NCBI GenBank assembly: GCA_019096195.1
Contig: JAGTXK010000103.1
Span: 124,001-188,000, forward strand
DNA: 64,000 bases
Source: Boletus sp. NGJ
Taxonomy: Eukaryota; Basidiomycota; Agaricomycetes; Boletales; Boletaceae
Reading direction: 5' to 3'
Shown: piece by piece, positions 216-58,545 of the stretch
Numbering within the stretch: the stretch's first letter is position 1
How the letters are laid out: each line of letters opens with the position of its first letter
Notes under the pieces: model-generated
Databases searched by the model: none
Seen by the model: the letters and a program-made list of their open reading frames with translations, nothing else
Told to the model about the DNA's origin: nothing
Translations under genes and position numbers: made by a program

Positions 216-1592
216 TCATGCGGGAGTAGGTACAGCTGGGATACCACGCGTGATGAACCCGATTCGTCGTATCCAATGAAAAGTTCCACGGGTCACACTC
301 TGATACACCCTTTCTCCTTTACTGACGATACGAGAGCGCAACTTCCACGTGCTGAGTCCAGCTCTGATGGCAGCAAATCGCTGGACAACTTCATCCATAG
401 TGGGACGTTTGGAAGGATCCTTCTGAACCATGTCAGTTAGCAGAGGTCGCATGAAGTCAAACCCGAGCTTCGACTGGGCTCATGTTTAGCCACAGGTATA
501 CAACGTACAGTTAAAGGCATACCTCAACAAAATCCTTCTTGATGGCATTGCCGATGTAGAAGACATCAGTAGGGAAAGGATCGCAAGGAGCGTTGGAATT
601 TTGAAACTCCGGGACTTCCTTGTCGGCTCCCCATATTGGGTCTTCCATAGGCGTGGCAACAGAAGGATCATAACGACGTGACAGACCAAAATCAATGAAG
701 AAATATTTTGGAGGTCGTTCAGTACGAGTCTTGTAGCGCGCATATCCAGAGAAATCCCGCTTCATCAAAGGACTGACAGGGTGAAATGCGTCAAGGTAGA
801 GCTTGGTTGGATCCATCATTATGTTTCTGGATGAACAGTCGCTGCAAGAAACTAAATTGAAGGATAGACACTCAAGCGCTCACGCCAGGACTTACCGATG
901 GACAACACGGTGCTTGTGCATAAATTGAAGGCCCTACTCGAAGTTAGCAACTACATAAGGGAACGGTACGAAGGCCTACCTCAAATAATTGCCGAAAACA
1001 TTCCACCGCCTCTCCAATAGTATGAAATGGAGGTCGTAAATAATCTTGTAGCAGCGGCATAACAATGATTACCCTATCCTCTTCATCAGGAACAGGCAGG
1101 ACATCATAAACCGGAACGCAATGGTTAGCACTCATAGCTAGCGGTTGAGAAGAAAAATATCGTGCGATATCAATCTCATGAGGATGATAGGTCTTGTTGA
1201 CGAGCTTGAGCGTAACAAATGTGCTATCCGAAACACGTGTACCATCAAGGATCCTGGTAGCGTACTATGAGTTTCTATTAGATGAGCGACGCGAGACTGC
1301 GTCTAACATGCTTAGTACCTACCTGAGCTACACAACTATCTTCACACAAAACCCAATTCTCCTTTGTTCCCTGCCAAGAAGGTGTCCAATCCGGGGTATA
1401 ACGAGGTCGCAGTAGGTATCCACTATCCCTCAACCAATGATAGTGCTGGGACCACCATAGCTCGGGTTCGGTAAGCTGGCCGTCTTTGTTGTTTGTGGGC
1501 AAATCACCGAAAACTGCACGTTCGACTTGAGCAAGCAGTGCCTGGTCTCGACTAACTTCAGTTTCCTTGGCTGGCAGCTTTCCTGTGGACAT
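216..1592 (-). CDS. Kinase-like protein, copy 1 (Agaricomycete HRD/DFG family)
   Basis: A predicted serine/threonine kinase-like protein read in about five exons. The first exon starts with MSTGKLPAKE and has the family block SGYLLRPRYTPDW. The next carries the N-lobe with FVTLKLV (likely the ATP-contacting Lys) and NHCVPVYDV. A short exon gives FMHKHRVVHR, which splices to DCSSRN and so rebuilds the catalytic HRDxxxxN loop. KYFFIDFGLSRRY supplies the DFG metal-binding motif. The last exon has KDPSKRPTMDEVVQRF, the usual end of a kinase fold, followed by a basic tail. No classical glycine-rich loop was seen. It is transcribed away from gene A, with about 235 bp between the two start codons. 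Catalytic residues look intact, so activity is plausible; the substrate is unknown. Copy 2 at 7731-9081 is a clear paralogue with the same intron pattern. Confidence 0.85.
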
Positions 1593-1827
1593 GGCTCGCG
1601 GCGCGGAGGTGTTAGCACCAACAAATCTTTAATATTGGTTTTTTATAAACATACACAAATATGAACCCAAAATCGGACCCCATGCACCCAAAGGATCGCG
1701 GAGTTGTTAGTATTTGAGTGCTAAGAGAGATTGTCCAGACGGAGGAGGGGGGTGCTGGAGGATGCTTTTTCCACACGGTCCCCCCATTAAAGAACCAAGA
1801 TGACTTACCCAAGGTGATTTATCCATC
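1593..1827. promoter_or_regulatory. Shared 5' region of kinase 1 and gene A
   Basis: About 235 bp lie between the two divergent start codons (minus-strand ATG at 1592, plus-strand ATG at 1828). A bidirectional promoter is inferred from the layout alone. I see no recognisable binding site. The corresponding gap in the mirror-image pair (7193-7730) is longer. Confidence 0.35.
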
Positions 1828-2964
1828 ATGCAATCAGACACTGCCCAGACGGTCCTTCTCATCGCGGCAGACCTTGGGTCGGTCGAGAACTACGATCCAA
1901 CAGTCCCACTCGGGAGGATCACTACCAAGGGTTCCTTGGATGCAGGTGGTCTATATCTCCGAGCTACGCTGAACGAAATGCTCCAGATTCTCCGCTTGTG
2001 CGAGGGTTTGGAAGAAAACCATCGTGAGCTTCTTCGAGAAACGAAGGCCCAGTACGACAAGTGGGTAAATTGACGAAGTTCATTCCAAATAGTAACGCTT
2101 GCTTCATTAGCTTGAGCCGACGGAAGAAAGAGCTTGAATCACTTGACAAGAGTCAATCAATATTCAAGCCCTTAAAGCTTATAGCAATCAAGCGTGCCAA
2201 ACGAGCATTCCTTGACAATGCTCAGGAGCTCTGGAATTCGACAAGGGTACCTCTCTAACAAATTATTGGGATAATCAGAGCTCATGAAGAAGGCAGACAA
2301 CCTCTGAGAGGTTGAAAAGAGCTCTACTATCGACACCTTCGGTGAACCTCGTTCCAGTCGAAAGTATGACTTGTTTATGCTGGATCATGGACTTCCTCAA
2401 ACAAAAAACGTAGGTGAATCTGTCACAGATGGCGAACGGCTTTCGGGTCTCGCAGTGTCATTGCCACCCCCGCCTCCAGGGGAGATGAATCCTCCTGGTA
2501 TGGAGGAAGTGCTAGCCGCCGCCCAAAAGATGGCCTCCATTCTGGCCTCCTCTGGAAATCCCTTCGCCGATCCAACCCCTTCAAACAGTCTAGATGGACA
2601 AACCTCGAGTAAGGCAATGATGCTCCGTCTCACCATCCGCTTACCATATGATGTTGCTGCATCGAACCTTAGCTGCGAGGGCGGTACTCGACCCTGAGGT
2701 ATCATCATCTGCCCGAAATAGTGTCACTACCACGCCCAGTAGCCCTGGCTCAGCCTCCAATTTCAGTTGGTTCAATGTCAACCTCAACATCGTCAACAAC
2801 GCAGATTCCAACGCTCACGGACTTACCATCAATAACAATGGCGTTGAAAATAGTGGATCAGGTAGGTTCTATCCAGCGAGGGAATTCAACCTGAGCCCCA
2901 CGTTGACCTTGCCGGCATAGACGTTACCGACCATCGTTCGTCTGTGAATAGCCCGCCATCCTAG
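1828..2964 (+). CDS. Unrecognised lineage-specific protein 'A' (family A/B/C)
   Basis: I do not recognise a known domain. Exon 1 (1828-2060) begins MQSDTAQTVLLIAADLG and is helical, with ATLNEMLQILRL. Exon 2 (2111-2246) is lysine-rich and helical and ends in NSTR just before an intron. Later exons carry a polyproline run (LPPPPPGEMNPPGM), a helix with AAAQKMASILASSG, and an Asn-rich end containing VENSGSG. An intron follows that motif, and a short last exon gives a stop at 2962-2964. Gene B shows the same order, the same exon-2 ending (TR followed by an intron) and a similar Asn/Gly end; gene C shares the polyproline part and the NSGSG-plus-intron end. The borders of exons 3-5 are uncertain. 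It sits head-to-head with kinase 1. A scaffold or kinase partner role would be inference only. Confidence 0.6.
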
Positions 2965-3500
2965 ATCCTAGCCTCCGTCTCAGTGAAATCTCTCTTGTAG
3001 TTCTACCTTACATTACAGCAATGATATTACTTCCAGAACCAAAGTTGCTTTGGTAGGATGGGAAAAAATCGTGCGGTTGATTTGTTCATGCCTATTGTGA
3101 GGTTATACAGTACATAAATTGACACGTCCCACCGAAGCGTTCGCACGGCGAGGGGGATAATTCGGGAATCGATTTTCCCCTCGTCTTTCTCACCTCTGGA
3201 ATCCATATTGCTACATAAAATTCACCGCTATACCGTTCCTTTCATAACCAATTTGAGCCGTTCTCGATCGATCAGCGGATGGTTAGCCCCTTCTCAGGAG
3301 CGAGGCTGCCTGCAATACCCAAATGTTCAGGCTGCCTGCTGTGACTTGTCGCCCAGCGGCCCAGGTTCCGTCCTCAGTTCCCCCCTACTTCGCTTCGACA
3401 AACACAGATGACCGGGGGCACCATGATACCATCCGTTGTCGTGTAATATGAGCCCTGGGTGGTTGGTGCGCCGGTCCCGCCCTCTCAATCCGACAAGTCG
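2965..3500. other. Intergenic, no gene seen
   Basis: Short, interrupted frames only. There are some splice-like signals around 3400-3560, but I cannot assemble a convincing gene, and nothing here matches a family I know. Confidence 0.4.
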
Positions 3501-3559
3501 CACCAACCGTGAGTAGTCGTCTCTTCGAAGCGCCTTGTTCGACGACTAATTCTCTGTCA

Positions 3560-4480
3560 TTCATTAGGTCCCTTCGAATACTACGTTCGCTATTTGGCAG
3601 ACCTAGTGAAAGTTCAATTTTACGAACACAGTGGATACGGAATATGCAGCAAACCTACGCTCTCGACGATGGATCGACCAACTTCCAACGATACGTTCCA
3701 GTCGTCTTGCATTGACTTGATTTTTACGTTCAAGGCACTTGCATTGCGGTCGCCGTCATGATTACTCGGGTCAATAGTGCCCAGGCGAACGTGAAGACGG
3801 GGCTCTGAATTGGCTGTGGCGTTCCTCCCATGTTCGGGGGTCTGCCGAAGTACATCGGTCCCATTTTATGCCCTAGTATTGGTCTGAACGTTAACAGGCA
3901 GTGTCAAGCTGGATGCCTCCTTGGTTGGGCGTCACGTACCTGTAGCGACAACTAACCGCACCATCCCAGAGTGGTGTGAGGTAAGGAACCATCGCATCAT
4001 TCTACTTGGTATCCATCCAACCTCCCCACATTGGAATTTCCAGACGGAAACCGAGAAGATCGAGTGTTACCCTACAGAAGAAGTGAGAAGCATGGAGTTC
4101 TTCTAATTTATGCCTTCGACTGATTGGTTTCTCAGCTTTCAATCTATAACGCAACTCGGATATGCAAGGTCCAAGTGGTTGCTTTGATGTAGATTGAACG
4201 AAATTCTGGTCTCCTCACGACATAAACATCGGATTGTATGTCCCTTCCCAATCAGTCCCTTGGCAATGTGCGACTTATTGCATCGCTATCCACGGTTCTT
4301 CAACTAGGTCTTGCCTCCGATCATTGGAGAACGGGTGGCGTGCCTTTGTGGTTACACAAACTCGAAGTCATGAAGGTTCACGGTCTTGAATCCGCACGAC
4401 TATAACCCTTCCGTGGTTCGAATTCATACATAAGCATCATGTAACCGATCGGTGTGGCTCATGGATCAATGCCTTTACAC
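3560..4480 (+). repeat. Diverged duplicate segment X (partner at 9860-10290)
   Basis: Several blocks match the segment at 9860-10290 in the same order. One is at about 3631-3680 (acagtgga..., acgctctcgacg). A second is at about 3768-3815 (agtgcccaggcgaacgtg against agtgcccaagcgggaatg). A third is at about 4395-4460 (actataacccttccgtggtt against accataacccttcagtgtgg, then gaccgatcggtgtg-like). Frames are broken in both copies. One frame around 3569-3720 looks protein-like (LADLVKVQFYEHSGYG) but I cannot name it. It is probably a decayed gene plus flank, copied together with the neighbouring kinase. Confidence 0.5.
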
Positions 4481-4953
4481 GAATTCGTTGGACTGAAACC
4501 ACATACCTCTGCACCGGCCATTCCCAAGAGTCGTTCTACACCATCAAGGTCAACTCGAAGAAGGGCATCCTATTTCGTCGTTTTCGAGCTTCTTCGTTGA
4601 GAAGATCATTCAAATGCCAATCCCGGAGAAGTAACGACAAGGTCGCTGAGTTTCGCAACTCCGATAAGCTTCGCAAACCATTCAGCACGGAGATCATATG
4701 GGTCAATCATGTAGTCAGGACCTGATTTCTTTTGGTCAGTAGTTTCCAAGAGTATCTTACTTGATGTACTTATTCCTTCGGATCATCGATGGAAACGGGA
4801 CCATTGGGGACACATTATGATACACACCATGCCGCTTCTCGGAGTTTCAACATATGTTCTCTGTGATTCGTACTTACTTCGGCAGTTCTGGTGAGGCGGT
4901 AACGGTTTCCGTCAATTATTCGAGGTATCCCCCATCCGTGCGCCTTTGACCTC

Positions 4954-5260
4954 ATGAAGACCATCAAAAGAGACTACAGTGCTTTGGTGAACCATTCCAG
5001 TGCACTCGAGGTCCTTCAAAGTACCTATTTCATCGAAGTTGGGCTCTCCCATAGATACGATTCATCAGAAACGAACCCAATGGAAATTCCGATTCAGAGG
5101 AAGGCTCAGATTTTCCAACCTTCGAGACTTGAAACTCATTTCCGACAGACGCTTTGTTTTACCTTGGAAATGCGCTCAAGGACTTCATACAGGTTGGTTG
5201 GCCCAATCTTTCAGACTGAGAATTGATCAACTCGTCGAGAGTGTACAGACGAAACGAGAC
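4954..5260 (+). pseudogene. Broken third copy of the kinase-like gene
   Basis: Around 5020-5100 the frame reads YFIEVGLSHRYDSSETNPME, which aligns with YFIDFGISRRYDHSDTNPRE of kinase 2. The catalytic DFG is therefore EVG here, so the metal-binding Asp is lost. Further on, at about 5155-5195, FYLGNALKDFIQVG appears in another frame, matching FYIGNAIKMDFI of the intact copies. At least one frameshift separates the two blocks. I see no N-lobe or HRD loop upstream, so this is a decayed fragment of the C-lobe on the plus strand. Confidence 0.75.
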
Positions 5261-6040
5261 TAGACTCTGAATTCAGAAAATTTAGCATGAGACGTGGTCC
5301 AGGCCGATCCTACGAAGCGATCCGAGATGGAGGAATACGACAGAGCTTGGGTGGCTCGAAATCACGCTCACTGATCGTGTATAACAAGAATGATACGTTT
5401 GAACAGCTCACTCGTGTACATGTCGTTGCACACTGGACGTGGCATATCGCATTTGCAGTTCCGAATAATTCAATCTGACAGCGTTACGAGCATCGATATA
5501 TTGATATCCAACGTGGCACAGGCAGTTATGCACGCCAATAGAAATTCGAATCTCCCACACAGTGCGGCCACGTCGAATCGAGCTAGTCTGGTCTCCAGGC
5601 CAACTTATCAGGCACCGTGTGGGCACGTCCTCTTCTAGGATACTAGATGGCATTGTACATAAATACCTTTAATTGGTGAAGTTGACATGCAAGTGCCATG
5701 TCGACAGTTTGATGACGGTGGCCACAACTACAAGATAAATCCAGACATACTGGATTAGCCTGCCACAGCCTCGGCAGCTGAACAGAGCAGGATTCCTTGT
5801 ATTATGTATTACTTTGTGCTTTTCATCAGTGCCCTGCGGCAGCATGACAACAAATCTTTTTATGGGTCCGAACAGCGGGCATCCAAGTTTGGTCCATTGG
5901 AGAGGCGTTCAGGCTATCGTTGCTTGTACGATGTAAATGCTTTGACGCAACTGGCGCGGGTGGAAAACGCGATAGCATGAATAATACATTTACTACGACT
6001 ACAAGGTGTTACACAGATTGATGGGAGAATGTAAATGTCA
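5261..6040. other. Intergenic, no gene seen
   Basis: Only short shadow frames. The sequence leads into the 3' end of gene B on the minus strand. No repeats or RNA genes are evident. Confidence 0.4.
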
Positions 6041-7192
6041 TTATGGTGAAAACTGCTGAGTAACCGACGCTACTGAGGTGTCAATATCATACTTTTGAAA
6101 GAGATCGAAACTAACCTCCTCTGTTATGCGAGCCACTATTAATCGCGGGTGCAATAACATTAGAATTTTCTCCCGCTAGTATGGAGTTATGGTAGACTCG
6201 GATATCGATGTGATTGATGGGTCGGGGACTTGTCGGATGGGACCGCTGTAGATCGGTGGAGGCAGCAGGAGTCCCATTGCCTTCATCAGCATCCGATTCA
6301 TGCACATCTTGGGTGAGTATACTTTCGGTATTTGCGAGAGAGATTGCATGCTCATCTATTTGGATCCTGTCAGTCATTATCACGCCTGATTACCCCAACT
6401 TCCTCACCATCGCCCAGTTGTGGAATGAGGGAGTTGTCTTGGAATGGGTCACTAGTAGCTATCGTCTCCGTTGCATCATTGATCGTTTGTTCAGCATTGG
6501 CGTCCCATCCATTGGGCAACTCAACTATGACCCCGTCAATCATTGTGCCCGGTGGTATTTCGCCTGAGGTATGACCAAATGTGAATATTGAAACTGCAAT
6601 CAGGTAACCTGTTCAGAGCTTACCATTCACCACTCGTATCCGTGTAGGTGGAACCACTCGCACATGCTCTATACGCTCCACACGCTTCACGCGCTCCTCC
6701 TGTTCCTCTCTGTGGATCATCTCGGACGTGCGCTAAACGGGTGGTTTATTTCAGTAGACGTTGCATGCCAGTAATTGAGCAACCCAACCCGGGTCTGAAT
6801 CAAGAGAGCTTTCGATGCTGCATGAAATAGCCGGGCTGCTCGGTAGTTTAGAAATGCTTTGAACGGGTTGAGAGTTTTGCGATTATCTTGTAAGGTGTCC
6901 CTTTTCGCTTTCAGACTACTAGAGCATGAGCAGACGTGTGTGTGCCGTGGATGAGCACTGACGCTTCAAGATCGAGCCTCGTATTAAAAATGAAGTCCTC
7001 GTTCTTATTGTAATCGATGCCTAGTTCCTTGATCTTTTTCATTTCCTTCAGTGTTGCATGGATCAGAATCTTGCCCTTGGTGAGATTGTCATCGGCTTCA
7101 TAATACGCAAGGGGGAAAATACGCTGGTCAAACGCGGAAGCGGCGCCAAGGTCGATTGGGATGATCGCAGCGGCGGGGTCCGTGGAAGCCAT
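6041..7192 (-). CDS. Unrecognised lineage-specific protein 'B' (family A/B/C)
   Basis: Paralogue of gene A on the opposite strand. Exon 1 (7192-6963) begins MASTDPAAAIIPIDLGAAS and has the helical block HATLKEMKKIKELG, matching RATLNEMLQILRL in A. Exon 2 (6918-6789) is a lysine-rich helix (KRDTLQDNRKTLNPFKAF) ending in QTR before an intron, at the same place as in A. A third exon has TSEMIHREEQEERVKRVERI, strongly charged and probably coiled coil. A fourth has GEIPPGTMIDG and TSDPFQDN, like GEMNPPGM and SGNPFADP in A. The last part contains NHIDIRVYHNSILAGE and NSGSHNRG. A simple read-through would stop at 6111. An intron after NRG, as in A and C, would move the stop to 6041-6043. It is head-to-head with kinase 2. 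Function unknown. Confidence 0.6.
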
Positions 7193-7730
7193 CGATTGAA
7201 GGTGTTCTGGGGAGTAATGGGTGGAAACGGTTTCGTGTGGGGATTATATGGGGAATTGGGACTACAGGATAATTTGGAATTCCATCCAAGGAATGAATAA
7301 TTTCCATCTTCGAATACCCTCCCAGGATTACTTTGGCGGGTACTTTTTGAGGTTACGCGATTCCAGAGTCTGTGGAACGGATAAATATCTAAGAGATACT
7401 AGGTGAGCAGACAAGCGCCGTCAACTGAGAAATAAATGGTCCAAACCGAGGTCCCCGCTGAAAATCAGTGAAGAGCGAGGGACTTTGACGTCTTTGATAT
7501 TCCACAAGTTATTTGGATTTGCGCTGAAGTATGTCAGATATTTCGCCGTATCTACCCAGCGCATGCCTCCGATTCAAGTTCCGCGACGATCAATTAACTT
7601 ACTGACGACACGTGGACCGTTGTGGGTGCGTGTTTGTGTGTATTTTAGCACGAGGTTTGCATGCCTACTATGGCACAGCGACTGGCAGTCTGGTGTACAC
7701 TACTGTTCGCGCATTTCAGTGGTATCAACG
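7193..7730. promoter_or_regulatory. Shared 5' region of gene B and kinase 2
   Basis: About 540 bp separate the divergent starts. An open frame extends upstream of the chosen kinase start (from 7485), but it lacks family resemblance. The ATG at 7731 gives an N-terminus comparable in length to kinase 1. No clear motif was recognised. Confidence 0.35.
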
Positions 7731-9081
7731 ATGTCGCGAACAGTGGAGGTGGACGCCCAGATTTCCCAGGAAATGCTTGAAATGTGGGGAACAACCGACC
7801 GCATCCCACCAGAAGAACTAGATCCTAGGGAGGCTTGGTGGCGTGATCGCTACAAGAAACTGAACAACCATGGGTATTTGCTACGTCCTCGCTATTCCCC
7901 CCAGTGGGTCCCTTCTTGGAAAACATCGAACAGGGACTGGACTGACACTGAAGATGGTACAAGGTTAAAGGTACGCAAGTTTTCCTTCCTACCGTTGGTA
8001 TTTGCCGCATGTCGTCCTAGTTTGGCCAAGTCATGGATGCGACTCGAGTCTCGGACGGGAAAGTGGTCACCTTAAAGCGTATAAAACGAGGAGACCATCC
8101 ATATGAAGCAGATATCGCCTTGTATTTTTCCTCACAAGCTCTCGCCTCGCAGCCTGTAAACCATTGCGTCCCTGTCTACGAGGTCTTCACACTGGACGCT
8201 GAAGACAACACAATGATCATGGTTATGCCCCTACTTCGTCCTTACAATGATCCTCGTTTCGATACCATCGGAGAAGTGGTGGAGTGCTTTCGCCAGCTGT
8301 TTGAGGTAATGTGAATTTGTGGCTAGGGACGACTATGCCTTGAAATTCTTTCAGGGGCTCCAGTTCATGCATAGGCACCGAGTTACCCATCGGTGTGTTG
8401 AGTAGACAATATTTTGCTCTTACATTGACTTTTCGACAGGGATTGCATGAATCGAAACATCATGCTAGATCCTACTCATCTTTATCCTGAGTCATTTCAT
8501 CCCGTGGCTATCAATCTAAGCAAGGATTGTACTGGTGATGCCAAGCACTTTACGCGTACTCAACGACCCGCGAAATACTATTTCATCGATTTCGGGATTT
8601 CTCGGCGATACGATCATTCAGATACTAATCCTAGGGAAATACCGATCTGGGGTGGTGACAAAGAGGTTCCCGAGTTCCAGAACTCCAATGAGCCTCGCGA
8701 TCCATTCGCTACTGATGTTTTCTATATCGGTAACGCTATCAAAATGGACTTTATCCTGGTCAGTTGCTTGCTCTACCACATGGTGGTCAAACTCTGCGGT
8801 CGCTGATCCAGAATCCACAGGAAAAACGAGGCTTTGAGTTCATGAAACCCTTAGTTGCTAGTATGATCCAGGCAGACCCAGATAAGCGCCCGAAAATGGA
8901 TGAGGTGGTTGCTCGATTTGATACCATCCGGCATGGGCTCAGCCGGCGCAAGCTACGCTCACGCGTTGTGGATGTCGACGAGGACTTTTTCGAACGGGTT
9001 GCTCGCACTACTTTTCACTGGACACGCCGAATTGGATTTGTTGCTAGAGGAGTTCCATCCATACCTAGTCCATCATCCTAG
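7731..9081 (+). CDS. Kinase-like protein, copy 2 (Agaricomycete HRD/DFG family)
   Basis: Paralogue of the gene at 216-1592, with the same exon plan. The start MSRTVEVDAQ is followed by the block HGYLLRPRYSPQWVPSW. The next exon has VMDATRVSDGKVVTLKRIKR, where the Lys of VTLKR likely contacts ATP, and NHCVPVYEV. FMHRHRVTHR splices to DCMNRN to give the HRDxxxxN catalytic loop. YYFIDFGISRRY holds the DFG. The 3' part has QADPDKRPKMDEVVARF and a basic tail ending IPSPSS. Catalytic residues all appear present, so it is probably active. It is divergent from gene B, the mirror image of the kinase 1 / gene A pair. Substrate and location cannot be read from the sequence. Confidence 0.85.
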
Positions 9082-9859: not shown

Positions 9860-10290
9860 CACCAGACTAGTTGTGAAACCCAGAGCGCTTCTACGGACAG
9901 TGGAGATGTCGAATATAAAGCAAGCCAACGCTCTCGACGGAGGTTTGACTGTTCTTCAAAGATTCGCTCCAATTCGCTTGGTTTCCCGTGTGAACAGTGC
10001 CCAAGCGGGAATGAGGACGGGTTCTAAATTGACTGATGCTATCAATGTCAGGGTGCCCTCTGGTCTTGCCTCTAACCAATGGATAAACGGTGGTGTACCT
10101 GTACAAACCGTGCATGTTACACACATTTGGGGTCGCGGGGCCCGGGATGACGATTTTGTATCCGTATGACCATAACCCTTCAGTGTGGCTCGAATTCATG
10201 CGCAATTGAGCTTCACGTAACAGTGACTGGTGACCGATCGGTGTGTGCAACGACACTGCTCAGCTGCTCCAAGTCTCGTGTTAGTGCCTT
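9860..10290 (+). repeat. Diverged duplicate segment X' (partner at 3560-4480)
   Basis: This segment shares ordered blocks with 3560-4480, including acgctctcgacg, agtgcccaagcgggaatg and accataacccttcagtgtgg. It is more compact than its partner. No intact frame spans both copies, so it reads as a duplicated and decayed segment rather than a live gene. Confidence 0.5.
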
Positions 10291-18971: not shown

Positions 18972-21385
18972 TCAGTGTGCACCGTTGGGCGATGGGAATA
19001 GGGATGATGGTCGTGGTACAATGTCTCGAGGATGTTTCACCCGGAACTCGCTCACCAGGCAGACATGGCTGAAAAAGGAAAAAGGTCAATAATGGGAAGC
19101 CCATCAAATCTCAATGTATCAAGACTGACTCTGAAGGGAAGTGGGCATTTGGAAACCCGACTGCCTTGTCGAGATAGCCCTTATCGACCCCACCGAGAAC
19201 GGCATTGACTGCTAGGTTGCCTGTGCCGTACCAGATATAGTCAATCACGCCTCGGAAGCTGGGGGTGAAATTCGTCAAGGGGGGATCACCCGCTGCGGCA
19301 TACGCGCTCTTGAGGCTAAACTTATGCCGTAACCCTTCGGTAGTGTACCTCCCATAAAGGTGCGACATGAAATCAGGATGATCTGGTGGAACAGACCCAT
19401 TGGACAAGAACTCGCACACGCCACTAGCGGGCACAGAGTTGAAATCACCACAGATAATCAGGGGTATCTTCGTCCCGTCACCATATGCGGGTGGTGGTCG
19501 TGTTTGTGGCGCGGACTTGTCTTCTGAATTGTTTGGCGGTCGCGGAGGCAGCTTGCAAAAGTATGCCGCAGTCTTCTCTATCTCGTCCACCAAGAGAGCC
19601 ACCTGAACGAGCTTGACGTCCCGAAAGTTTGGATCCCAGTGTATGTGAGCGTTCGCCACAACGACACGCGTGCCTGTCTCCTTGTTCTCGAAGCAACATA
19701 CGACAGCGATGTGATCCTTGCCGAGAACCCGGTTGAACATGTCGTCCGTTTTCTTGAAATCCGGGCGCTGCATGGCGACGGTACTAAACTCGATTAGCTG
19801 TTTTTCTACTAATTGGTACCTGGAGAGATATAAACATGAGTTCCAGACAAACAAAAATCAACGACAAACTTGTTGGCCTTGTAGAAAGTTGCACAACCGT
19901 CGACTTGCCGCCGATCCGCATCGCTCATAGTCTTATACCGCGACTTGGGATAGTATACGCCTTCATAGTCCTGCCCCTGGAGATGCTTGATGAAGTACTC
20001 CTCGTACTGAGTGGTGTCCACTTCTTGCAAACACAGAAAGTCGGCATCGTAGTTCATCACTTCCGTCAGTATCAGTTCCTTCCGGTAGTCCCACGACAGT
20101 GCCCAAGATGGTGTGTAACCGTAGAGGCGCTCGGTAGCATACTTCTCGCAAAGAATGTTGTAACACAGAACACTAATTATCTCTGTATGAGGGTCGTTGT
20201 TCATCGCTTCGCGTTCGGCTGCAGTAACGACGTTCCTCCACAACCGTTCGGGTGGAGGGGCAGGCACAGGACATGAGTCGCGCAAGAAGGAAATGAGTGC
20301 TGGAGTACCATCTTTCTGCACGATGGTTTTCAGCGCGGCATCCAGAGGATTGCCTTCGACACCAAGGGTCTGCAGTTGGTGTAAACTGCCAAGTTCCGGT
20401 GGCAGCGTAACTAGATGGTTGTCAAACAGGTACAGCTCCTTCAATTGCGTGAGCATCCCAAGTTCCGGTGGGACTATGCTCAAACTATTTCCCGACAAAT
20501 CGAGAAGTTCCAAATGACGGAGTTTGGCAATTTCCGGAGGTACGGATGAAAGCGCGTTGTGGTTGAGGTATAGATTGATGAGGAAGGTGAAAGTGAACAA
20601 CCCAGACGTTGGGGGAAGCGTCTTGATGTTTACGCCACCCATGTCAAGCGAGTTCCACGTATTCTGCGGGGGCTTGGCAGTCAGCCGCGGCGCCTCGGCT
20701 ATCGGAGCGACGGTTGACGAGGGATGATTGACCATGGAACCTGCAAGACTGGGCGAGCTTTCTGACGCACTGGTAGGAACAGGTGTGGAGGAGGTTACTG
20801 GGGCCTCAGACTCTTTGGGTGGCGCATCGGTACCGACGGTGGGTTTGACGAGATTAGGATTTGTGATTGGGATAGCGGATTTAGTGACAGTCCGGGAGGC
20901 CATGGCGCTTGCTCGTGCACGGTGATGAGGCGAACGGGACGACCTGATCATCTTTATGAATTAAAACCGTCGATCAGATCGACATATGTCCATGACGTGT
21001 ATCGGTTACGCACCTCACACTTGAGAAGCTGTTGCTGCCAGTGTGGGCTGATAATCTGGCTTGCAGCACTGCCTGGTGATCCTGAGCCCATGTGCTGTGT
21101 GTGTATATGTCCATTCGGGGGAGAGGGATAGTGGGAAAGGGAATTTTGGTGCTGGTGGTGTGCGATAGGCGGATGTGAAAGAGCGTGCGGATGGGCGGGG
21201 TGATGTTGCATCGGGTTGACCGATCCATTGGTGTAGAGGGGAAAACCTGGTGAGGCTGGGGGAGGGCCAATATTCTGCGAGGTTGGGGGTCCTAGGACGG
21301 GATGATGTGTCCGAGACCACGGGGACTGGTCGTGGTGATTTGGATGTTTGTGAGCGATAGCCGGGGATTGTTGGGGATAAAACAT
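18972..21385 (-). CDS. CCR4: CCR4-NOT deadenylase catalytic subunit (Ccr4/CNOT6 type)
   Basis: Poly(A)-specific 3' exonuclease of the cytoplasmic CCR4-NOT complex. The start is MFYPQQSPAIAHKHP (ATG at 21385), and the N-terminal region is His/Pro/Gln-rich. WQQQLLKCE splices to MIRSSRSPHHRARASAMASR, a hallmark of fungal Ccr4. Leucine-rich repeats follow (LYLNHNALSSVPPEIAKL, LLDLSGNSLSIVPPELG, LYLFDNHLVTLPPELG); in this family they bind the Caf1 nuclease. The EEP nuclease domain has SVLCYNILCEKYA (Asn), LCLQEVDTTQYEEYF (Glu), ANAHIHWDP, LIICGDFNSVPASGV and, after the last intron, PSDHVCLVSEFRVK with the catalytic Asp-His. All key residues are present. The divergent neighbour is the MVD gene, about 500 bp away. 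Confidence 0.95.
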
Positions 21386-21884: not shown

Positions 21885-23202
21885 ATGCCCAAGATTTTCC
21901 AGGCAACAGCATCTGCCCCGGTCAATATCGCATGTATCAAGTCAGTCTGATTGAAACTGTCCGATATACGTCGTCCTGACTTTCCGTCCAGGTACTGGGG
22001 TAAGCGAGACACCAAGCTCATTTTGCCGACAAACTCTTCGCTCTCCGTCACCCTCAACCAAGATCACCTTCGCTCCACCACCACCTCTCGCGCAGACCCT
22101 TCCTTCACCGAAGACACCCTATGGCTCAACGGCCAGCTCGATGAGATCAAACCAGGCGGCCGTCTCGCTACGTGCATCAGCGAAATGAAGCGCCTCCGAA
22201 AAGAGCTCGAAGACGCAAATCCCGATGCAGAAAAGGTGCGTTCGCCTTCCATCTCGAGAAAAATACGCGTACTAATTCTCATTCCCAATGGAGTTCTCAT
22301 ACTGCAAGGTACACATCTGTTCGCACAACAACTTCCCCACTGCCGCCGGTCTCGCTTCGTCCGCGTCCGGCTTTGCAGCCCTCGTTTACTCCCTCGCAAA
22401 ACTATACCAGCTCCCCGCATCTCCACAGGAACTCTCCCTCATTGCGCGTCAGGGATCCGGCTCTGCCTGCCGTTCCCTCTTTGGCGGCTTCGTCGCGTGG
22501 CGAGAAGGCATCGCCGCTGACGGCTCCGACTCCTTCGCTGAACAAATCGCATCAGAGGTCGACTGGCCCGACATGCACGCCCTCATCTGCGTCGTCTCCG
22601 ACGACAAAAAGGGCACCTCCTCCACCGCCGGCATGCAACGCACCGTCGAAACCTCTGCCCTCTTCTCACACCGCCTCACCGTCGTCCCCGATCGGATGCG
22701 CGGCATCACGGAAGCCATCCGAAACCACGACTTTGATACGTTCGCAGCCATCACGATGAAAGACTCGAACCAGTTCCACGCCGTCGCGCTCGACACCGAC
22801 CCGCCCATCTTTTACATGAACGACGTCAGTCGCGCGATCATCACCGTCGTCACAGAGTACAACCGCGTCGCGCTCGAAAAGGGCGGCAAGCGCAAGGCGG
22901 CGTACACGTTTGACGCCGGTCCGAACGCGGTCATTTACGCACCTCGGGAGAACATGAGAGAGATCATCGCGTTGATCGTCTCGTACTTTCCTCAGGAATC
23001 TTTCAACGATGCTTTCCAGCTTTTTGGAGGTGCCGCGGTGCAAGGTCGGCTCGTGGACGGATTTAACGCCGACGTAGCCAAGCGCTTCGGCACGGGGGCC
23101 GTCAAGACGCTTATCCACACTTGCGTCGGAGACGGACCCCGTGTCAGAGGCGACGAAGAGTCCCTGTTGGGCAGCGACGGTCTGCCCAAGACGTTGACCT
23201 AG
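21885..23202 (+). CDS. MVD1: Diphosphomevalonate decarboxylase
   Basis: Last step of the mevalonate pathway: ATP-dependent decarboxylation of mevalonate diphosphate to isopentenyl diphosphate, feeding ergosterol and other isoprenoids. Exon 1 is short (MPKIFQATASAPVNIACIK) and splices to YWGKRDTKLILPTNSSLSVT, the substrate-binding N-terminus. A second intron (about 22235-22294) joins NPDAEK to FSYCKVHICSHNNFPTAAGL, followed by ASSASGFAAL, the GHMP-kinase ATP loop. Further family marks are GSACRSLFGGFVAWREG, MKDSNQFHAVALDT and TFDAGPNAVI with the catalytic-site Asp. The full domain is present with a stop at 23202. ERG19 is the yeast synonym. Confidence 0.95.
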
Positions 23203-46217: not shown

Positions 46218-46819
46218 GGGATGGGGTGATGTACGTGCTTTTTTTACGTTTCTTGGGAGGACCTACCTACGTAATGGGAGGGCAGGTTGATGATCTTTTT
46301 TCAGTACAATAGACATCCTCATAATGCGTAAGTGTTGATGCATTACCATGGTCGGTTTTTTCTTTCTTTCCTATAATGACTTCATACTAGGGTGACAAGA
46401 TTGTGATGAACTAGATATCGCTAACTACAGTGGAATTACGAGTTTTTAAATGAAGTGGACAATGTTGGTGCATACGAGCGGCCTTAGCCATTACTAGTTA
46501 CTCTGCGTGCAGTCCAATTGTACCTACGTCCCGACGGTCATCATGGGTAGAATTATGGACTACAGTATGGTATGACGGAGTTGACGAGAATGTCGGTGCT
46601 CTACGGACCTAGAAGAAAATCAATACCACCTACGTGGTACCTCGTGCAGGAAGAAATTTCCAGGCGAATTACAGAAATACCAGGACAATGTGAGAATGTG
46701 AAAACAGAGCACGATACAATAGATGGATGGTTCATATTATAAATATACATAAATGCCGGTTCCGAGTCGATGTCACCTTTTCATGCACGTTCTCATCCCT
46801 CCCTGGAAACACCCAGTAC
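46218..46819. other. Intergenic between convergent genes
   Basis: No gene. AT-rich near 46740 at the 3' side of the following minus-strand gene. Confidence 0.45.
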
Positions 46820-47450
46820 CTAGGCGTCCCCCACTTCCCAAGCAGCTTCCAAGATCTCCATCTGCTCGACCCAATTACTGTGGTCCATTTGCACCGCATA
46901 CATCTGCGCGTGGTTCAACCCCTTCAACGCCTCCACCACCCAAATCTGGGAGGTCCAATCCGGCCCCCCTTGCTGGATCGGAACCAGCGAGAAATGCGTC
47001 TTCAGAGTCTCCAGATAACTCGGCGCCACATATCCGACCAGATGCGTGCCCTTCTCGTCCTTGTCCCACTTGACGTGACGACTGTGGACGTGTTGGGTAA
47101 AGTACCCGTCCTGTAGGCTACCGCCGATCTCGTAATAGTTGCCCATCCCGCGCGTGGTCGACGTGGGGATGAAGATGGCCCAGTGGTAAGGCTTCTTCTC
47201 GCCGGTGGACTGATTGCCTCTGTAGAATTGTGCGATTCTAATCGGGAGGTAGCCTGGCGGCACCTGGATCCAAGGGTGCCAGTGGTGTAAAATGTTATAT
47301 TCGGGTTCTGGTGTAGGTCCAAGGCTCGCGGCATAGGCTGTGGGGCGGGGATACAAGGAAAAGGTGAACGGGGTGGAATGGCGAGAGAGAGGTCGGGAAC
47401 TTACCCCTGAAGATGGCCATCAACTCGGGCGGGTAACTGCTGATAGGCAT
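46820..47450 (-). CDS. Uncharacterised conserved fungal protein
   Basis: Two exons. Exon 1 (MPISSYPPELMAIFR, ATG at 47450) splices across about 60 bp to AYAASLGPTPEPEYN. The body has WIQVPPGYLPIRIAQFYRG, KKPYHWAIFIPTS, GNYYEIGGSLQDGYFTQHVH, SYLETLKTHFSLVPIQQGGP and SQIWVVEALKGLNHAQMYAV. The pattern (YHWAIFI early, then an intermediate strand, then xxWVxEAL near the end) recalls small fungal proteins of unknown function with a papain-like appearance. I cannot assign it firmly. It is intact, about 190 residues, with no signal peptide or membrane segment. Confidence 0.7.
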
Positions 47451-47504
47451 CGCGAATATTGAATCTGAGGATGTAGAACTGATGCTTTTTTTTTTTTCAC
47501 CGAC

Positions 47505-48217
47505 CTAGGCAGAACGCCTTTTATATTGAAGGATTGTCCATCTTGCGAGCTCCTGGTGGACAAGCGCTTGGGTTGTGGATGTATACTCTTTTGTTACCAC
47601 AGGTGCTTCTGTTGTCCGCTGCTGTGACAATAAATGATGGATGGTGGACTCTCGACGCTTTGGCGCCTTCGAACGCGACGAGTCGCTTGCCAGGCTCAGA
47701 TTTTCTGTGAGGTGCGTCATATTCATCGAGCTGTGGACATCATCGATGATGTACCTTGACCACACGCAGCGGAGGAGAGTGCCGTGTGAGAGAACTGAAG
47801 AAACGCACTAGTTTAACTTATCCTTTGGTTTTCCTATCTTCAGCGTGGAGGTCATTGTCGAGAGGGCACGTGTTTGTAGTGATGATCGCCTGGGCCACTA
47901 TTGGGACGCTGGGGGACAATCAAGTTAAGCAAGAGACAAGAGACGCTTTCCACGTCGTGTGTGAGACTCTATATCTTCCGAGTCGATAACAAAACCTGAG
48001 ACAGAGTCGTAGATGTGACCCGAAAGTTCCAACTTCCTGCCAGTGTATAGAGGGGTGATACTACTCGTTGCACCTTTCCAGCCTTTGTCACAGGCGTCGG
48101 GACTACCTTCGTGCTAGCAGCGATCGGTGCAAACGAGAGGGTTTGCGGAGACATGGCCAGGAGAGATGCTAGCAAGCCTGTGCTGGGATTATGTTTCTGT
48201 CGATGTTTAGTCGACAT
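47505..48217 (-). CDS. Possible hypothetical gene
   Basis: Two minus-strand frames with acceptable splice signals between them: 48217-47990 (MSTKHRQKHNPSTGLLASLL, with a Ser/Thr/Pro-rich middle) and 47765-47505 (SMNMTHLTENLSLASDSSRS, then VHQELARWTILQYKRRSA). The connecting exon is uncertain and I recognise no family. It could be noise. Confidence 0.3.
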
Positions 48218-51193: not shown

Positions 51194-54100
51194 ATGTCGT
51201 CGAGGTTAAGTAGTCGATCGAGGGATGGTGAGTGCCTTAGCGGAACATTTGAACGTGTGATACTGATGGGGACCGAAGGGTTGACTGAGAACCGCCCCTC
51301 CTCCAGTAATGTCCACGAGAAGGAAACAAAACGGATTGAAATAGATGGTCGAGATAACATATGGTCAGTTGTGTTCCTCGTTGATGGGAAGCACGTCGTG
51401 AGCAGTGGCAAGACGTTGGCAAGTGGAAGATGGCAAGGAGGTGGGAACCCCAATGGATGTAGGAAGGATCGTTTGCGACATCGCAGTCTCACGAGATGGA
51501 AAGTGGGATCGTCAGTGGGTCGAAAAGTGGCTGGGTGACGGTGTGGAATGCGGAGAACCACAAAAAGGAGACCGAATTCCGAGGACACAACAGTTGGGCG
51601 CGTGCAGTCGATGTCTCTCCAGATGCAGCAAGAATAGTGACCGGATCAGAGGACGAGACCGCCTATGTCTGGTCGCTCTCCACTGGTGAGCGACTGCTCG
51701 GTCCGTGGCAGCACGACTACTGGGTAGCTGTGGTCAAGTTTTCACCTGACGGACGGCTCATCGCCACTGCCACCTTCGGCCGCGTATCCATCCGAATCTA
51801 CGACGGTCAGAGCGGCCACCTCCTGGTCGACATTCCGGTTGAAGTCGGCCCGTCGTTGAACAAATCCCTCGTCTGGGCCGACAACAGCAAACAACTCTTT
51901 ACCTTATCTCGCGATGGGAAAATCAAATGTCTCGACGTCTTCAACGGGTCAACAGTCTCTCGATGGCGTATTCACAGCGACGACAAGTCCGAATACATCG
52001 CCCTGACAAGCAACGGTACATTCATTGTAGCATCCACCAGTTCATCTGTCTCATTCTGGGACCCTACGACGCATAAGCAAATCGGGCCTGTCATCGAGCA
52101 TACAGCTCTCGTCGTATCGATGGCTATCTCAGCAAACAATGATATTGTGACTGGTGCGGGCAAGATAATTACCCTTCGCACCCTCTATGACATCCTTCCA
52201 TTATCATATTCTGACAATGTAAGTGCACTTGCATCAAAACCTCGTTGTGGGAGATGGCTTCCTAATTATACGCTGCGTCGTTCACTGCTGCAGATGTTCC
52301 GTGCGCAAATCCACCGCATGAGTGTTGAGAAGGATGATCTTGAAGCGACAATCAAGTCCCTTCGTGTACAGGACGAGCGTTCAAGTGTGTCCATCTGCAC
52401 CGTGACTTCTGTTTTCTGATATGATGTCCTTATCCATTAGACGAGAAAATAGTAACTCTCGAAAAAACCGTCCAACAGCTCTGCACCGAGCTCGCCGACT
52501 CACAACACAGAGCGAATAGCCTCATCCAAATCCTTCGTGCCCACGAACAGAAAAATCAATGTGAAGCCCTGTATGCGCAAGGTCGCATATATGATGCTGC
52601 AAGGTCACTTCTCGAGATCGCGAGTACCGTAAGCGAGGTCGTGAGAGCCAACAAGTTAATCATGGATTGGCTTGTCGGTGAGTTCTGGTGTCGTGTATTT
52701 GGGGAGAGTCACGAATTCTTATCATCAGAGTTTACGCACCGATGCGTATCGACGCTGGAATTAATTGGGGACGAGGCATCCAACGTCGAGAAACATGGGG
52801 AAGCACTTGCTGCCTACTCTACTGCGTTGTCGCTCAGTCCCTCGACTACAGACACCTTATTAATCAAGTGGGCGAACATGATATTAATTCATGGCACAGT
52901 GAACGAAGCGTTGAGCAGTGCTGCCCAGGTATGCTTTACACGAGAGTGTCAACCTGGATATAGACTCCCTTGCGGTTTAGTTCAAACTTCCAAGGTTTTT
53001 AATCTACCGGGAAATTTGCGATGTGCTTGAAGGTATTGGTCGTGTGACAGAGTCGATCCAATGTTTCCGACAGATGCAGAACGAACTAGGAGAGGATACG
53101 TGTATGCACGATGAGCGAGCGCAGTGGGAACTCAGTGAGTGGTCTCGTGAGCAAGACTGTCAAAGCTCATCTGAGTTTTCCACACAGGTTTTCAACGGAG
53201 ATGCACAGAGAGGCTAGAGAAGCTCGCTGGCGTCGCAATGGATTCTCGGAGCTACAGTGAGGCCACTGAATATTTCTCGACCTTACTTTTGCTCGACCCG
53301 GTGGACCGCATGGATATCCTTGTCAAGCGGAGCACGGCACAAGCATTGCTGAGCTCGTGGGAGGAAGCGCTGAATGATGCTGATGAGGTACATTCCGTGC
53401 CTCACAGTTCTTCGCACGATATTGATGACAGAGCGCACAGGCCATAAAGCTCGACCCATCATCATATCGAGGTTACGAGCGGATGCATGCGGCATTACAT
53501 GGGGCAAGACGCCATGCTGAGGCGGTTGAAGCATTCCATACGATGCTTTCAAAACTGGAACACTCGTCCGACGAACGTATTCGCGGTCAGTCGTTTCTTC
53601 TATCACTTAGGTCACCATGTCTCGATTGACATCGATGATAGCACTTCGTGACCAGTATGTTGATGCGACGCCTATAATTCGACGCATTGTCGAGCAAACC
53701 ATTCGCCACATGCCACGGGTACTCATTGACACCACCACTGGTCGTCTACATGACAAGAAACAACTAGCAGAAGTATTTGAGGCTCTCCCGATATGCAACG
53801 AGCTAGTGTCGACGATGACAACACAGCCAGACCATGCACATATTTGGAAAGTGGTGAAGGAGTTTTATCGATACGTGATGCTCTCACACAGGTGGGAGCA
53901 CGACGAACCTCTGCTTCAGAAAGTCGAGAACATCTCGATATACAAACTAGAAGTGTTTCCCGCAACCATGAAGCTACAGAATTTCTGCTCACTTGTGCGT
54001 TCTCTTGGCTTCCGGTGGGCGTGGAGTGACACATGCTGTGTCGATAAACTCAACCACGTTATATTGCAAGAGTCGTTGGTCGCGATGTTCACGTGGTTTC

Positions 54101-55182
54101 GCGGCTCGTCCCTCACGATCGTGTACCTTCGTGGCGTCTCGTCTGTGTCTCAGCTGCCCGGTGGTCTCCAGCGGAGCATCTGGAACACTCGAGCATGGAC
54201 ATACCAAGAATACGTTGCTGCCGAGATTGTCCAGTTCTACACTGAAGACTGGAAGCCATACCTTGACTTGACGTTGTTCAACCACAAGGAGTCGCCTATC
54301 ATCGTTTCGGAGATGCAACAGGTGACAGGAGTTTCCCCGCAGGAATTGGCTGTACTTCGTCCTGGCCTTAACAGGGTGCGCGAGAAGCTTTATTTAGCTT
54401 CGACGCGCCAAACGACGCTCGTGGAAGATATTGCGTACTCATTGTTCGGGATCTTCAATGTTGCCATCCCAGTCATATATGGCGAGGGCAATCGTGCTGT
54501 GGGTCGTCTCCTGGAGCATATCCTGACAGGATCAGGAGACGTCACAATTCTCGCTTGGACCGGGCGCGCGGGTAGTCACAATAGCTGCCTGCCCACGGAC
54601 CTCTCTGTTTACAGCCATATCGTGCCGCCACACATTCCACGACTCATCAAGACAACCGAGATGGACCGCACGGTGATGGAATTGCGTTCGTCTCTACCCG
54701 ACCTTTCCTTCGTTGTGATGCTTTATAATCAGCTCAACAAACTTCCTTCGCCATCGCTTGCTGCCACTCGACTGCGACTTCCCAGCATCGCTTTTCGCCT
54801 TACCGAACTCGTCCACACCTCAGGCCCAGATCCCGTAACGAGCCTGCGGTTGTACCATGCGACGACGTCCATGCTTGGGGATGTGGAGATCAAGACAGCA
54901 GACAACTTGACAGGAATGGAGGATCTCTGTCTCGTCCATCCATGGATCCGCCCACTGCTCGACCAAGAGTTCTCAGATGGTGCTGCTGCGCTTGACAGAA
55001 CTACACAAGCACTCCGGTTCGTCGCTTGTCTCCGGCAGCCCTTTGGCGGGCTCTTGTTTGAGCCGCTCTCGCGTGTAGAGTATAGGCGAGTCGCTGCGGA
55101 CAATTTCATCATGGTTCAGATTCGGGAGGACGTATCGTTGACTGAGTTGATAGACAGCATCCGTACGATCGAAGTACAGTAG
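51194..55182 (+). CDS. WD40 - coiled-coil - TPR - HET protein (allorecognition-like)
   Basis: A composite protein of more than 1,100 residues read over several exons. The N-terminal WD40 propeller has NIWSVVFLVDGKHVVSSG, ARAVDVSPDAARIVTGSEDE, VAVVKFSPDGRLIATATFGR and SVSFWDPTTHKQIGPVIEHT. A coiled coil follows (KIVTLEKTVQQLCTELADSQ). TPR-like repeats come next: EKHGEALAAYSTALSLSPST, GRVTESIQCFRQMQNELGED, RSYSEATEYFSTLLLLDPVD and AIKLDPSSYRGYERMHAALH. A splice at about 53586-53626 leads into a 500-codon HET exon with YVMLSHRWEHDEPLLQKVEN, FRWAWSDTCCVDKLNHVI, WNTRAWTYQEYVAAEIVQFY and VIYGEGNRAVGRLLEHILTG. HET domains in this kingdom trigger self/non-self reactions. The HET and TPR parts are open. 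The WD40 part shows about two frame breaks, so expression as a full protein is uncertain. Confidence 0.75.
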
Positions 55183-55482
55183 TAGTCTAAACTTTTGAAT
55201 TTTGGTACTGTGGACTGTTACTGTAATATGATACAAGTTTACCTTAGTTTTCTCAGCAGTGACAGTTTTTGCGATGCATGGATGGTATAGTTGACGTTCT
55301 CATGATGCATGCATGAGGAGCTGCATTCGAGCCCTCCATCAGCCAAAATGCACTCTAATAATGGATAACACTGGAAGTGCATTCACATGTGTTGTTCCCT
55401 ACGCTATGCGTGGTGATGAGGCGTCACGTCGGGGTGAGAAGTTAGGACTTCAAGTTGGCGGCGACCACGTCGGCGTGGTGTT

Positions 55483-55745
55483 TCAAGGGGACCGAGTAGT
55501 CGCCGGCCAGTCGAGAGTGAACAAGACGCAGGCAGTCGAGTCACCCGATCTGGTCACGATTTGACTCCATTGTGTCCTCTCCGCTGGCACCCGTCCAACC
55601 TCCTTGTCGCTCTCTGCATCCCACACCACATCAGCAAACCACACTCCGTCCCACTTAGTATGAACCACTTCCCGTCTCGTGCCACCGCGATCTCATCGCT
55701 CGCATCGATTGGGGTCTCCACCTGCAGGCCCACCCCCTCGAGCAA
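55483..55745 (-). pseudogene. Antisense WD40 fragment of the same family
   Basis: On the minus strand, GLQVETPIDASDEIAVARDG, then KWFILSGTECGL and, in another frame, VVWDAESDKEVGRV and RSGDSTACVLF match the WD40 blocks of the family. It is a short broken remnant, opposite in orientation to the copies on either side. Confidence 0.65.
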
Positions 55746-55903
55746 CGTCGCAATTGCTTCGTGAATGATAAATCGAACAAGTTTGAACCGAAACTATAGT
55801 ATCGGTGTGCAGGTTCCGAGTATGATGCACAGATAGTATGTATACTTTGGAGGCTTTCTTCCGCCAAAGCATGTGGTCCCGCATGTCAGTGTGACTTTTG
55901 GAT

Positions 55904-57833
55904 TTACCTGTGCAGACTCATCTGGCCTCGACCGTGCATTCGACTAATTTTTTTTTCCCGCGCCATACCCGACCGTACTACACCTTCGACGCCGCTGGGA
56001 CGGTCCCTTTTAACCCTCTCTACAGCGGCTGCTGCCTTCTCGACGATCGACCACTGCAACCTGAACTTGCGTGAACCAGCAGGCTTGGCGTCATCTCGCC
56101 GGAACAGGTCGTCGACCGACTCGAGCGTCAGTCCTGCCGTCTCGGGATAGAACGTCCACACGATACATGCATTGACAAAGTTGAAGACCGCGAAGATGAT
56201 GTACGTCTTGTATCCAATGTTGCGTAACGCCGGCGGTGTGATTTGGACGACCTGCGAGTGCACGCGCTTGGATCAGCACCCGTTGTTGTCGTTCAAAAAA
56301 CCGGATGATGTGACACTAATGACAAAGTTTCCCAAAAAATCGGCTGCTGTTGCAAGTGCGGAGCCCTTTGCACGAAGCTTGAGAGGTAGGATCTCTGGTG
56401 GGTAAATCCAGACGGTCGCCATCCAACCTACGTGAACGCGTCGGAAATGAACACGAAAGCAAAAGGTATAATGACCGACCCCAAGTAAAGCATGATTCGT
56501 AGACAAAGATCAAGAAGACAGCGCCAATACTTGCCTGGGATGTGTTCATCTTCACGCATATAGCTTATAAGACGAGCACGAGACACTGTCCACATGCCAT
56601 CGATATCCAGAGCTTTCGACGTCCGACACGATCGATAGTGTACCACTATATGCAGTACACCGCAGTTAGATGCCGAAGAACTATGGATGCACATACGCTT
56701 ACAGTAACAAAGGAGGCTATAACGTACCACACTTGCAGGAAACAACCAAGGAAAAGAGACAGTTCTTGTGACATCCCTAGGCTCTGCTGGAACAACGTTG
56801 GCGCATAGTACGTGACAATGTTAATGCCTAAGGGGACGACTTTGAACACGTACGACTGCATATTGTTACAGACGTACCTGAAAACTCTTGCAAAAACTGG
56901 ATGCTGATAGCAAGGTAGAACCGCTTGTTTCCCTGAATGCCATGGGCTTTGAAAAGGTCCGACCAAGAACCTTTCTCCTTCGCTTCGAGGGAAATTGCGT
57001 CCAGGATTTCTGCGCGCTCATGCTGAACTGCGGGATGATCGGACGAAACACCTCGCAACTTTGCAAGGACGGTGGTGCCCCGATCGGGCGTAGGGTCATG
57101 CTGCATGAGCCAACGCGGTGTTTCGGGAAGCCAGAGCGTGACGGCGATGACATAGATGGCGAAGATACACTGGAAAAGAAGGGGGAAACGCCACTGCGCT
57201 GAGCTGCTGTGGAAGTAGAATCCATAATTTATCCAGTATCCAAGCATGAGCCCGCCAAGCATACCCGTTGATTGGCAGCAAACTAGCCAACCACGATGCT
57301 CTGGCAGCGTTATCTCGCTCTGGTAGACAGGGGCCACTGATAAGGCAAATAGGATGAGTGATCATGTCTAGACACGAAAACTGAGGTTGAAACTTGCCTG
57401 ATGTAATGTAACCAATACCTGGAGAAAGAGACGTTGAGTCGATCCTCTCTGAATGCAAAAAGAGAACCTTACCAATACCAGCGATGACACGCGCCACCAT
57501 CATCTGGATCCGTTCGAATGCTGAGCCCATGAGGACCGAGCCTATGATGAGGATGATTGCCCCGAGAATAAGTGTTCGTTTTCAACCCAGACGCTCGGAA
57601 TTGCTTGCAGCTGCGACAGCGCCAACGATGGCACCGATATCATAAAGAGACGTGATCGTACCAATCATCACGGTGCTTGGATTGCCCATCTGCGTGAGCC
57701 ACGGCCGAGAGACGACAACGCCAGACATAACACCTTGCTCGTAGCCAAAGAGCCAGAATCCAAAGCTACAAACGGAGGTGATCGTGGAAACGAGGGCAGT
57801 ACCCTTTAGACGGGGATGTCCTACCTTATTCAT
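55904..57833 (-). CDS. MFS sugar transporter, with an in-frame stop
   Basis: Major facilitator of the sugar porter family, 12 helices, plasma membrane. Seen in order: MNKVGHPRLKGTALVSTITS, FGYEQGVMSGVVVSRPWL, GTITSLYDIGAIVGAVAAAS, VAPVYQSEITLPEHRGWLVC, LMLGYWINYGFYFHSSSAQW, LPETPRWLMQ (PESPRxL-type), FLQEFSGT, NIVTYYAPTLFQQSLGM, DRVGRRKLWISMACGQCL and GWMATVWIYPPEILPLKLRA. The end has WTFYPETAGLTLESVDDLFR. In the first intracellular loop the family motif R-x-G-R-K/R reads SERLG-stop-KR: a TGA (minus strand, 57584-57582) stands where CGA (Arg) is expected. Everything else looks intact. It is either a recent pseudogene, an error, or a place where a predicted tiny intron would delete a helix. 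Confidence 0.85.
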
Positions 57834-58545
57834 AGTGAACGTAGTCGGGAATGTTGGGTATGTGGGCGAGTAAGGGAGCGATGATAAGCTCGTATTTGGT
57901 GCGAATCAAAGCATGGTCTATCGGCGCACTTTTTTTTTCTCACCGGAAAGGGTAGCCGTGGTGCTAACATGACACCTGGGGCGGGGGCCCATTAATGAGC
58001 CTTTGAGTATCCGAGGATCACATGAACCCCACGTGCGTGCTGCAGTGAGATTGGCTGAGCGACTTGCCTAAAAGTGTCTGCGCCGCTGTAAGGCCTCCAC
58101 CGCACACACAACCTGGGGTAACCGCCAGGAAGTAGTGATGCCTGCTGATGTTAGCTAGGAGCACTTTGGACCCCCCGCCGCTACGAATGCCAGCGTAAAC
58201 ATGTATTGAGCGTGCTCCTCTTCGAGTCTTTCGAGCGGACCACTAGCGGTTAGAATACACACATGCGTATTGATCAAGATTATCACTTGCAGTACTTTTG
58301 CTTATCGATGGGAGCGTGCCCTTTTTCAACAGGATACGTCGCGGAGCGATGATCGGGAGCAAAATTAAAACCGAAAGATCAACCGTTCACAGCGCACCGC
58401 CTGCAAGATGACTGGCTCTTATAATCGTCGGTTCATCTCCAACGGATCGTCCGTCCAGGTGATCGGGAGAGCTGTACGGATGCTTTTCTTTCTTTCCTTT
58501 CCGGGCGCAGCAGTGCCATCTGTTCCACCAGTTCAATCGGAAGGT
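57834..58545. other. Intergenic, no gene seen
   Basis: 5' region of the transporter and upstream flank of the duplicated unit. No supported gene. Confidence 0.4.

Follow-up and report, generated by a model that had tools for sequence, protein, structure and literature searches.

What does it mean that two related kinase genes of the fungus Boletus sp. NGJ each lie head-to-head with a small partner gene? The question arises in a window of 64,000 nucleotides (assembly GCA_019096195.1, contig JAGTXK010000103.1, positions 124,001 to 188,000), a segment of the contig labeled C114. The contigs labeled C20, C35, C44, C50, C59, C92, C101, C114, and C127 all belong to this one genome. The first-pass annotation of the window described two such pairs, K1/A and B/K2, and gene models bear this observation out. 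The kinase/partner pairing is real, recurs inside this genome, and is functionally suggestive, not proven. The chances are about even that K1/A and B/K2 are copies of a two-gene signaling module, in which a probable active kinase is divergent from a small, fast-evolving partner that would be the kinase's adaptor, anchor, or substrate. The genes and intergenic regions concerned are the following.

216..1592, minus strand: K1, kinase gene; gene model of 5 exons (1592-1323, 1264-980, 933-896, 841-523, 473-216), 389 aa
1593..1827, no strand: K1/A divergent intergenic region, 235 bp, candidate shared promoter
1828..2964, plus strand: A, partner gene; gene model of 6 exons, 287 aa
6370..7192, minus strand: B, partner gene; gene model of 4 exons, 220 aa
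7193..7730, no strand: B/K2 divergent intergenic region, 538 bp
7731..9081, plus strand: K2, kinase gene; 5 exons (7731-7970, 8021-8305, 8355-8392, 8440-8758, 8821-9081), 380 aa

The kinases and the recurrence of the pair

Agaricomycetes commonly carry kinases of the K1 and K2 kind. K1 and K2 are ~56% identical, and a third member of the family, K3, is found on C101. K3 has 353 aa, is 32-36% identical to K1 and K2, and matches them in the places and phases of its four introns; the second intron has a GC donor. All three proteins match PF00069 (Pkinase) above its curated cut-off of 31.7 bits (K1 42.4, K2 43.9, and K3 39.3; E 7e-11 for K1 in a 388-aa version of the model and 2.6e-11 for K2) and PF07714 above its own cut-off. 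The kinase family profile matches solved Ser/Thr kinases with a best E of 5.7e-10. In the alignment of K1-K3, the VTLK Lys, HP.E, HRD..N, and DFG are invariant. We take K99, D189, N194, and D238 (K2 numbering; unchanged in 3/3) to be the catalytic Lys, the HRD Asp with its Asn, and the DFG Asp. The canonical glycine-rich loop GxGxxG was not discerned by eye in this alignment. Judged by sequence, K1, K2, and K3 are probably active kinases because the kinase signature residues are retained.

The kinase census is composed of three single-protein genome searches, which returned 11 rows with K2, 17 with K1, and 17 with K3; these are lower bounds, and distant members may escape. Rows with E <= 1e-5 are confined to C114, C101, and C44. 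Weaker rows on other contigs fall at generic Pkinase places, except for one on C92 that was not confirmed as a family member by the family hidden Markov model (HMM). The kinase rows of C35/C50 and C59/C127 repeat with equal or near-equal scores, and rows for the HET domain repeat on C35/C50 too, a pattern suggestive of haplotypes left uncollapsed, or of contigs duplicated, in the assembly.

On C101, gene C runs opposite to K3 with 310 bp between the ATGs; the corresponding gaps are 235 bp for K1/A and 538 bp for B/K2. On C44, gene D is divergent from a broken family kinase whose pieces lie in two frames. All intact family kinases found (3/3) have a head-to-head partner. Genome searches with C return 6 rows on C101, C20, and C44, corresponding to two relatives, D on C44 and E on C20. 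Searches with E return 11 rows: those three places again, plus two rows on C35 and C50 that lack significance. Searches with A and B recover themselves only. A reading from the window alone was dropped because these searches of the organism's own genome showed such pairing at C101 and C44 as well.

The surroundings of the pairs were compared by tblastx. The kinase and the partner, including the partner 3' end, are the sole parts common to the C101 and C44 neighborhoods (19.8 and 29.7 kb), and the kinase alone is common to C101 and C114. C44 and C114 have an unrelated stretch in common, and the broken C44 kinase is not matched at that cut-off. This stretch (window 46694-48194 and 989-2485 of the C44 stretch, up to ~80% identical in translation) is perhaps a mobile element or a duplicated gene. 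C20 and C44 have a single 1.29-kb block in common (79.6%), which spans the partner plus the intergenic region but stops short of the kinase.

The partner proteins and their possible role

No Pfam match is listed for A or B at E up to 10, and comparing the two with K1 and K2 by BLASTP yielded no more than short rows at chance level. A and B are homologous in exons 1-2, and the partners diverge faster than the kinases, with a nonsynonymous divergence (dN) of 0.85 for A-B vs 0.36 for K1-K2. The tail of A contains 10% Pro and 25% Ser/Thr. D and E differ by a dN of 0.17 and a synonymous divergence (dS) of 0.38, which indicates coding sequence under moderate constraint. C, D, and E have an N-terminal hydrophobic stretch (KD19 2.2-2.4) that is not found in A and B (0.8 and 1.0). 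In 5/5 partner models, intron 1 follows codon 75-77 in phase 2 and intron 2 follows codon 120-125 in phase 0; for C, D, and E, the analyst fitted where intron 2 ends but did not force where it starts.

If the genes form a signaling module, the pair would tend to be duplicated, retained, and lost as one unit. The common, divergent intergenic region would allow both genes to be expressed together, and the partner would interact physically or enzymatically with the kinase, as an adaptor, a membrane anchor (C/D/E), or a substrate. Partners of the C/D/E type would place one N-terminal hydrophobic helix in the membrane and present a Pro-rich cytosolic tail. Those of the A/B type would be soluble proteins whose tail contains Pro as well. 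The roles named in the first-pass annotation, substrate, inhibitor, or scaffold, are inferred from the arrangement of the genes.

A shared promoter had also been proposed for the pair, and a comparison of four intergenic regions established no motif across them; the C44 region was ended at a point chosen by eye because the kinase there is broken. No exact 7-mer is common to all four regions, and 6 of the 7 settings of the motif comparison gave 0 shared words and no excess over shuffles. The remaining setting gave a mild excess, 16 nine-mers (one mismatch) in all four regions vs a shuffle mean of 7.2, which 2/40 shuffles reach. Because the excess is mild and appears in one setting of seven, a shared promoter motif is not claimed.

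Alternatives to a signaling module

Besides this promoter result, several observations weigh against a signaling module. No sequence homology between A/B and C/D/E was detected in exons 1-2. An intact kinase is present beside three of the five partners, and D and E lack one. No kinase piece was found near E within the C20 stretch examined (C20:171500-181400), and D is still an open gene although the neighboring C44 kinase has decayed. These kinase-less partners weaken the claim of an obligate bond. The functional link proposed at first survives in part: it is strengthened by a divergent partner that recurs at C101 and, beside a decayed kinase, at C44, in neighborhoods otherwise unrelated, but C, D, and E do not detectably belong to the A/B family.

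The principal alternative, which is possible but clearly the less probable explanation, is passive linkage, where short blocks are duplicated together by chance, adjacency has no functional meaning, and decay is slow. It accords with the copying of E without a kinase, with the survival of D beyond its kinase, and with the lack of a shared promoter motif. It also accords with the relics around the pairs, which are a record of local duplication and decay.

4210..4740, plus strand: decayed kinase copy; tblastn with K2 E 9e-7, 21%; weak HMM pieces; match to K2 by blastn, 73% over 71 bp
4957..5454, plus strand: second decayed kinase copy; HMM E 7.7e-9, profile 214-369, stops read as X; 74% over 69 bp to K2
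9897..10199, plus strand: candidate for one more kinase relic, recognized as kinase only by eye; short stretches match 3628-3668, 4307-4345, and 4380-4427
C114 ~122626-122709 (window -1374 to -1291), plus strand: kinase remnant left of the window; E 1.5e-4; tblastx 1.4e-8 to K2
C114 ~121484-121841 (window -2159 to -2516), minus strand: partner remnant left of the window; two weak matches to the profile, collinear, with E 0.019 and 0.31

The kinase HMM did not detect the candidate at 9897-10199. The remnants left of the window are divergent and oriented as B/K2. By its sequence, the K1/A-B/K2 locus looks like a local birth-and-death array, and how a pair is oriented within such a relic-bearing array is just one outcome among several. 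The mirror-image inversion of the two pairs, which the first-pass annotation had pointed out, thus carries no information.

Passive linkage is opposed by the persistence of adjacency. With demonstrably homologous partners, it persists to ~56% kinase identity (K1/K2) and to ~53% (K3 vs the C44 pieces), in the second case on contigs otherwise unrelated in the compared sequence. Persistence to the 32-36% that separates K3 from K1 and K2 counts only if C and A/B have common ancestry. That none of the three intact kinases found lacks a partner also argues against passive linkage.

The same asymmetry, in which 2/5 partners are without an intact kinase, would also suit a restraining partner, one that acts on the kinase as an inhibitor or antidote. 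A partnerless kinase would then be harmful and lost, and a kinase-less partner such as D or E harmless; the faster divergence of the partners also favors such restraint. It is nevertheless unlikely, as the numbers are very small, no inhibitor motif is recognized, and kinase decay alone produces the same pattern. The asymmetry opens the way to a direct deletion test.

It is equally improbable that two unrelated small gene families joined this kinase family independently, the likeness of the A/B and C/D/E exon plans being coincidental. The missing similarity in exons 1-2 and the hydrophobic stretch confined to C/D/E favor this explanation. So does an AlphaFold2 prediction for B exon 1 together with A, which is partly strand and, being of low confidence (pLDDT 56), was not interpreted further. 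The agreement of introns 1 and 2 in all five partner models and the same divergent position beside the kinase stand against it. The profile of C/D/E does not pick up A or B, and a joint profile of all five partners, which finds its own members by construction, was dismissed as evidence of homology.

Known systems and neighboring genes

Excerpts of PMC3321046 describe het-S/nwd2 and related ascomycete effector/STAND pairs as adjacent genes whose products are proposed to act together; the genes are divergent in Podospora, and their clustering is kept between species. K1/A, K2/B, and K3/C are likewise adjacent divergent gene pairs. Unlike het-S/nwd2, the other member of the pair here is a kinase and not a STAND/NLR protein, and A-E have no HeLo-type domain match in Pfam (E up to 10; a distant fold is possible, and amyloid-like motifs were not searched). 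Divergent two-gene fungal modules are a known theme, with het-S/nwd2, an effector and the protein that controls it, as a precedent, and the kinase/partner pair is a new variant of it. As the first-pass annotation had supposed, no described system of this form turned up in open-access PubMed Central (titles and abstract openings).

FslK is described in part of PMC3937382 as a fungi-specific kinase lineage retained in Agaricomycetes, and a TKL kinase expansion is described for Laccaria bicolor in part of PMC2838846. K1-K3 may belong with such lineage-expanded fungal kinases, and their match to PF07714 is a point of likeness. Unlike for K1-K3, gene partners are unmentioned in these portions of the two sources, which also name no substrates or regulators of fungal lineage-specific kinases. 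At three intact loci a gene stays divergent from members of one such family, which makes it a concrete candidate for a partner of these kinases.

According to excerpts of PMC12881547, fungal HELL domains occur inside proteins with kinase or pseudokinase domains. In the C/D/E type, the combination of a kinase with a small protein bearing an N-terminal hydrophobic stretch resembles RIPK3/MLKL and the fungal HeLo/HELL proteins, and by this analogy a cell-death role of C/D/E is thinkable. Unlike the HeLo/HELL-kinase fusions, kinase and partner here are separate genes without a HeLo-type Pfam match.

It is very unlikely that the pairs are a fast-evolving fungal immunity or allorecognition module, in which the kinase would license a membrane-acting partner (a split RIPK3/MLKL-like system), head-to-head for co-expression and subject to birth-and-death turnover, accompanied by the HET gene that adjoins E and by the HET/WD40 genes of the K1/K2 contig. 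The genome has 53 HET matches, the nearest lying ~33 kb from K1/K2, ~1.1 kb from E, ~190 kb from D, and ~600 kb from K3. HET genes are close to family loci at 1 or 2 of 4 places only, which is a hint. Where a kinase would be expected 5' of E, there is a HET-domain gene (PF06985, E 2.1e-12; C20:171500-181400, local 5348-6088, plus strand). On the plus strand of the window, a HET-domain open reading frame (53611-55179) lies between WD40 open reading frames (51463-52416 and 58918-59637). C20 sequence matches this region (window 51463-59637) by tblastx, and C114 and C20 each have several HET matches. Among viral contigs, 243 pattern matches were obtained and 0 were confirmed.

Ordinary genes also lie nearby in the window. 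These include mevalonate diphosphate decarboxylase (22276-23199, plus strand) and an open reading frame with leucine-rich repeats and an Exo_endo_phos domain (19812-20960, minus strand), which resembles Ccr4.
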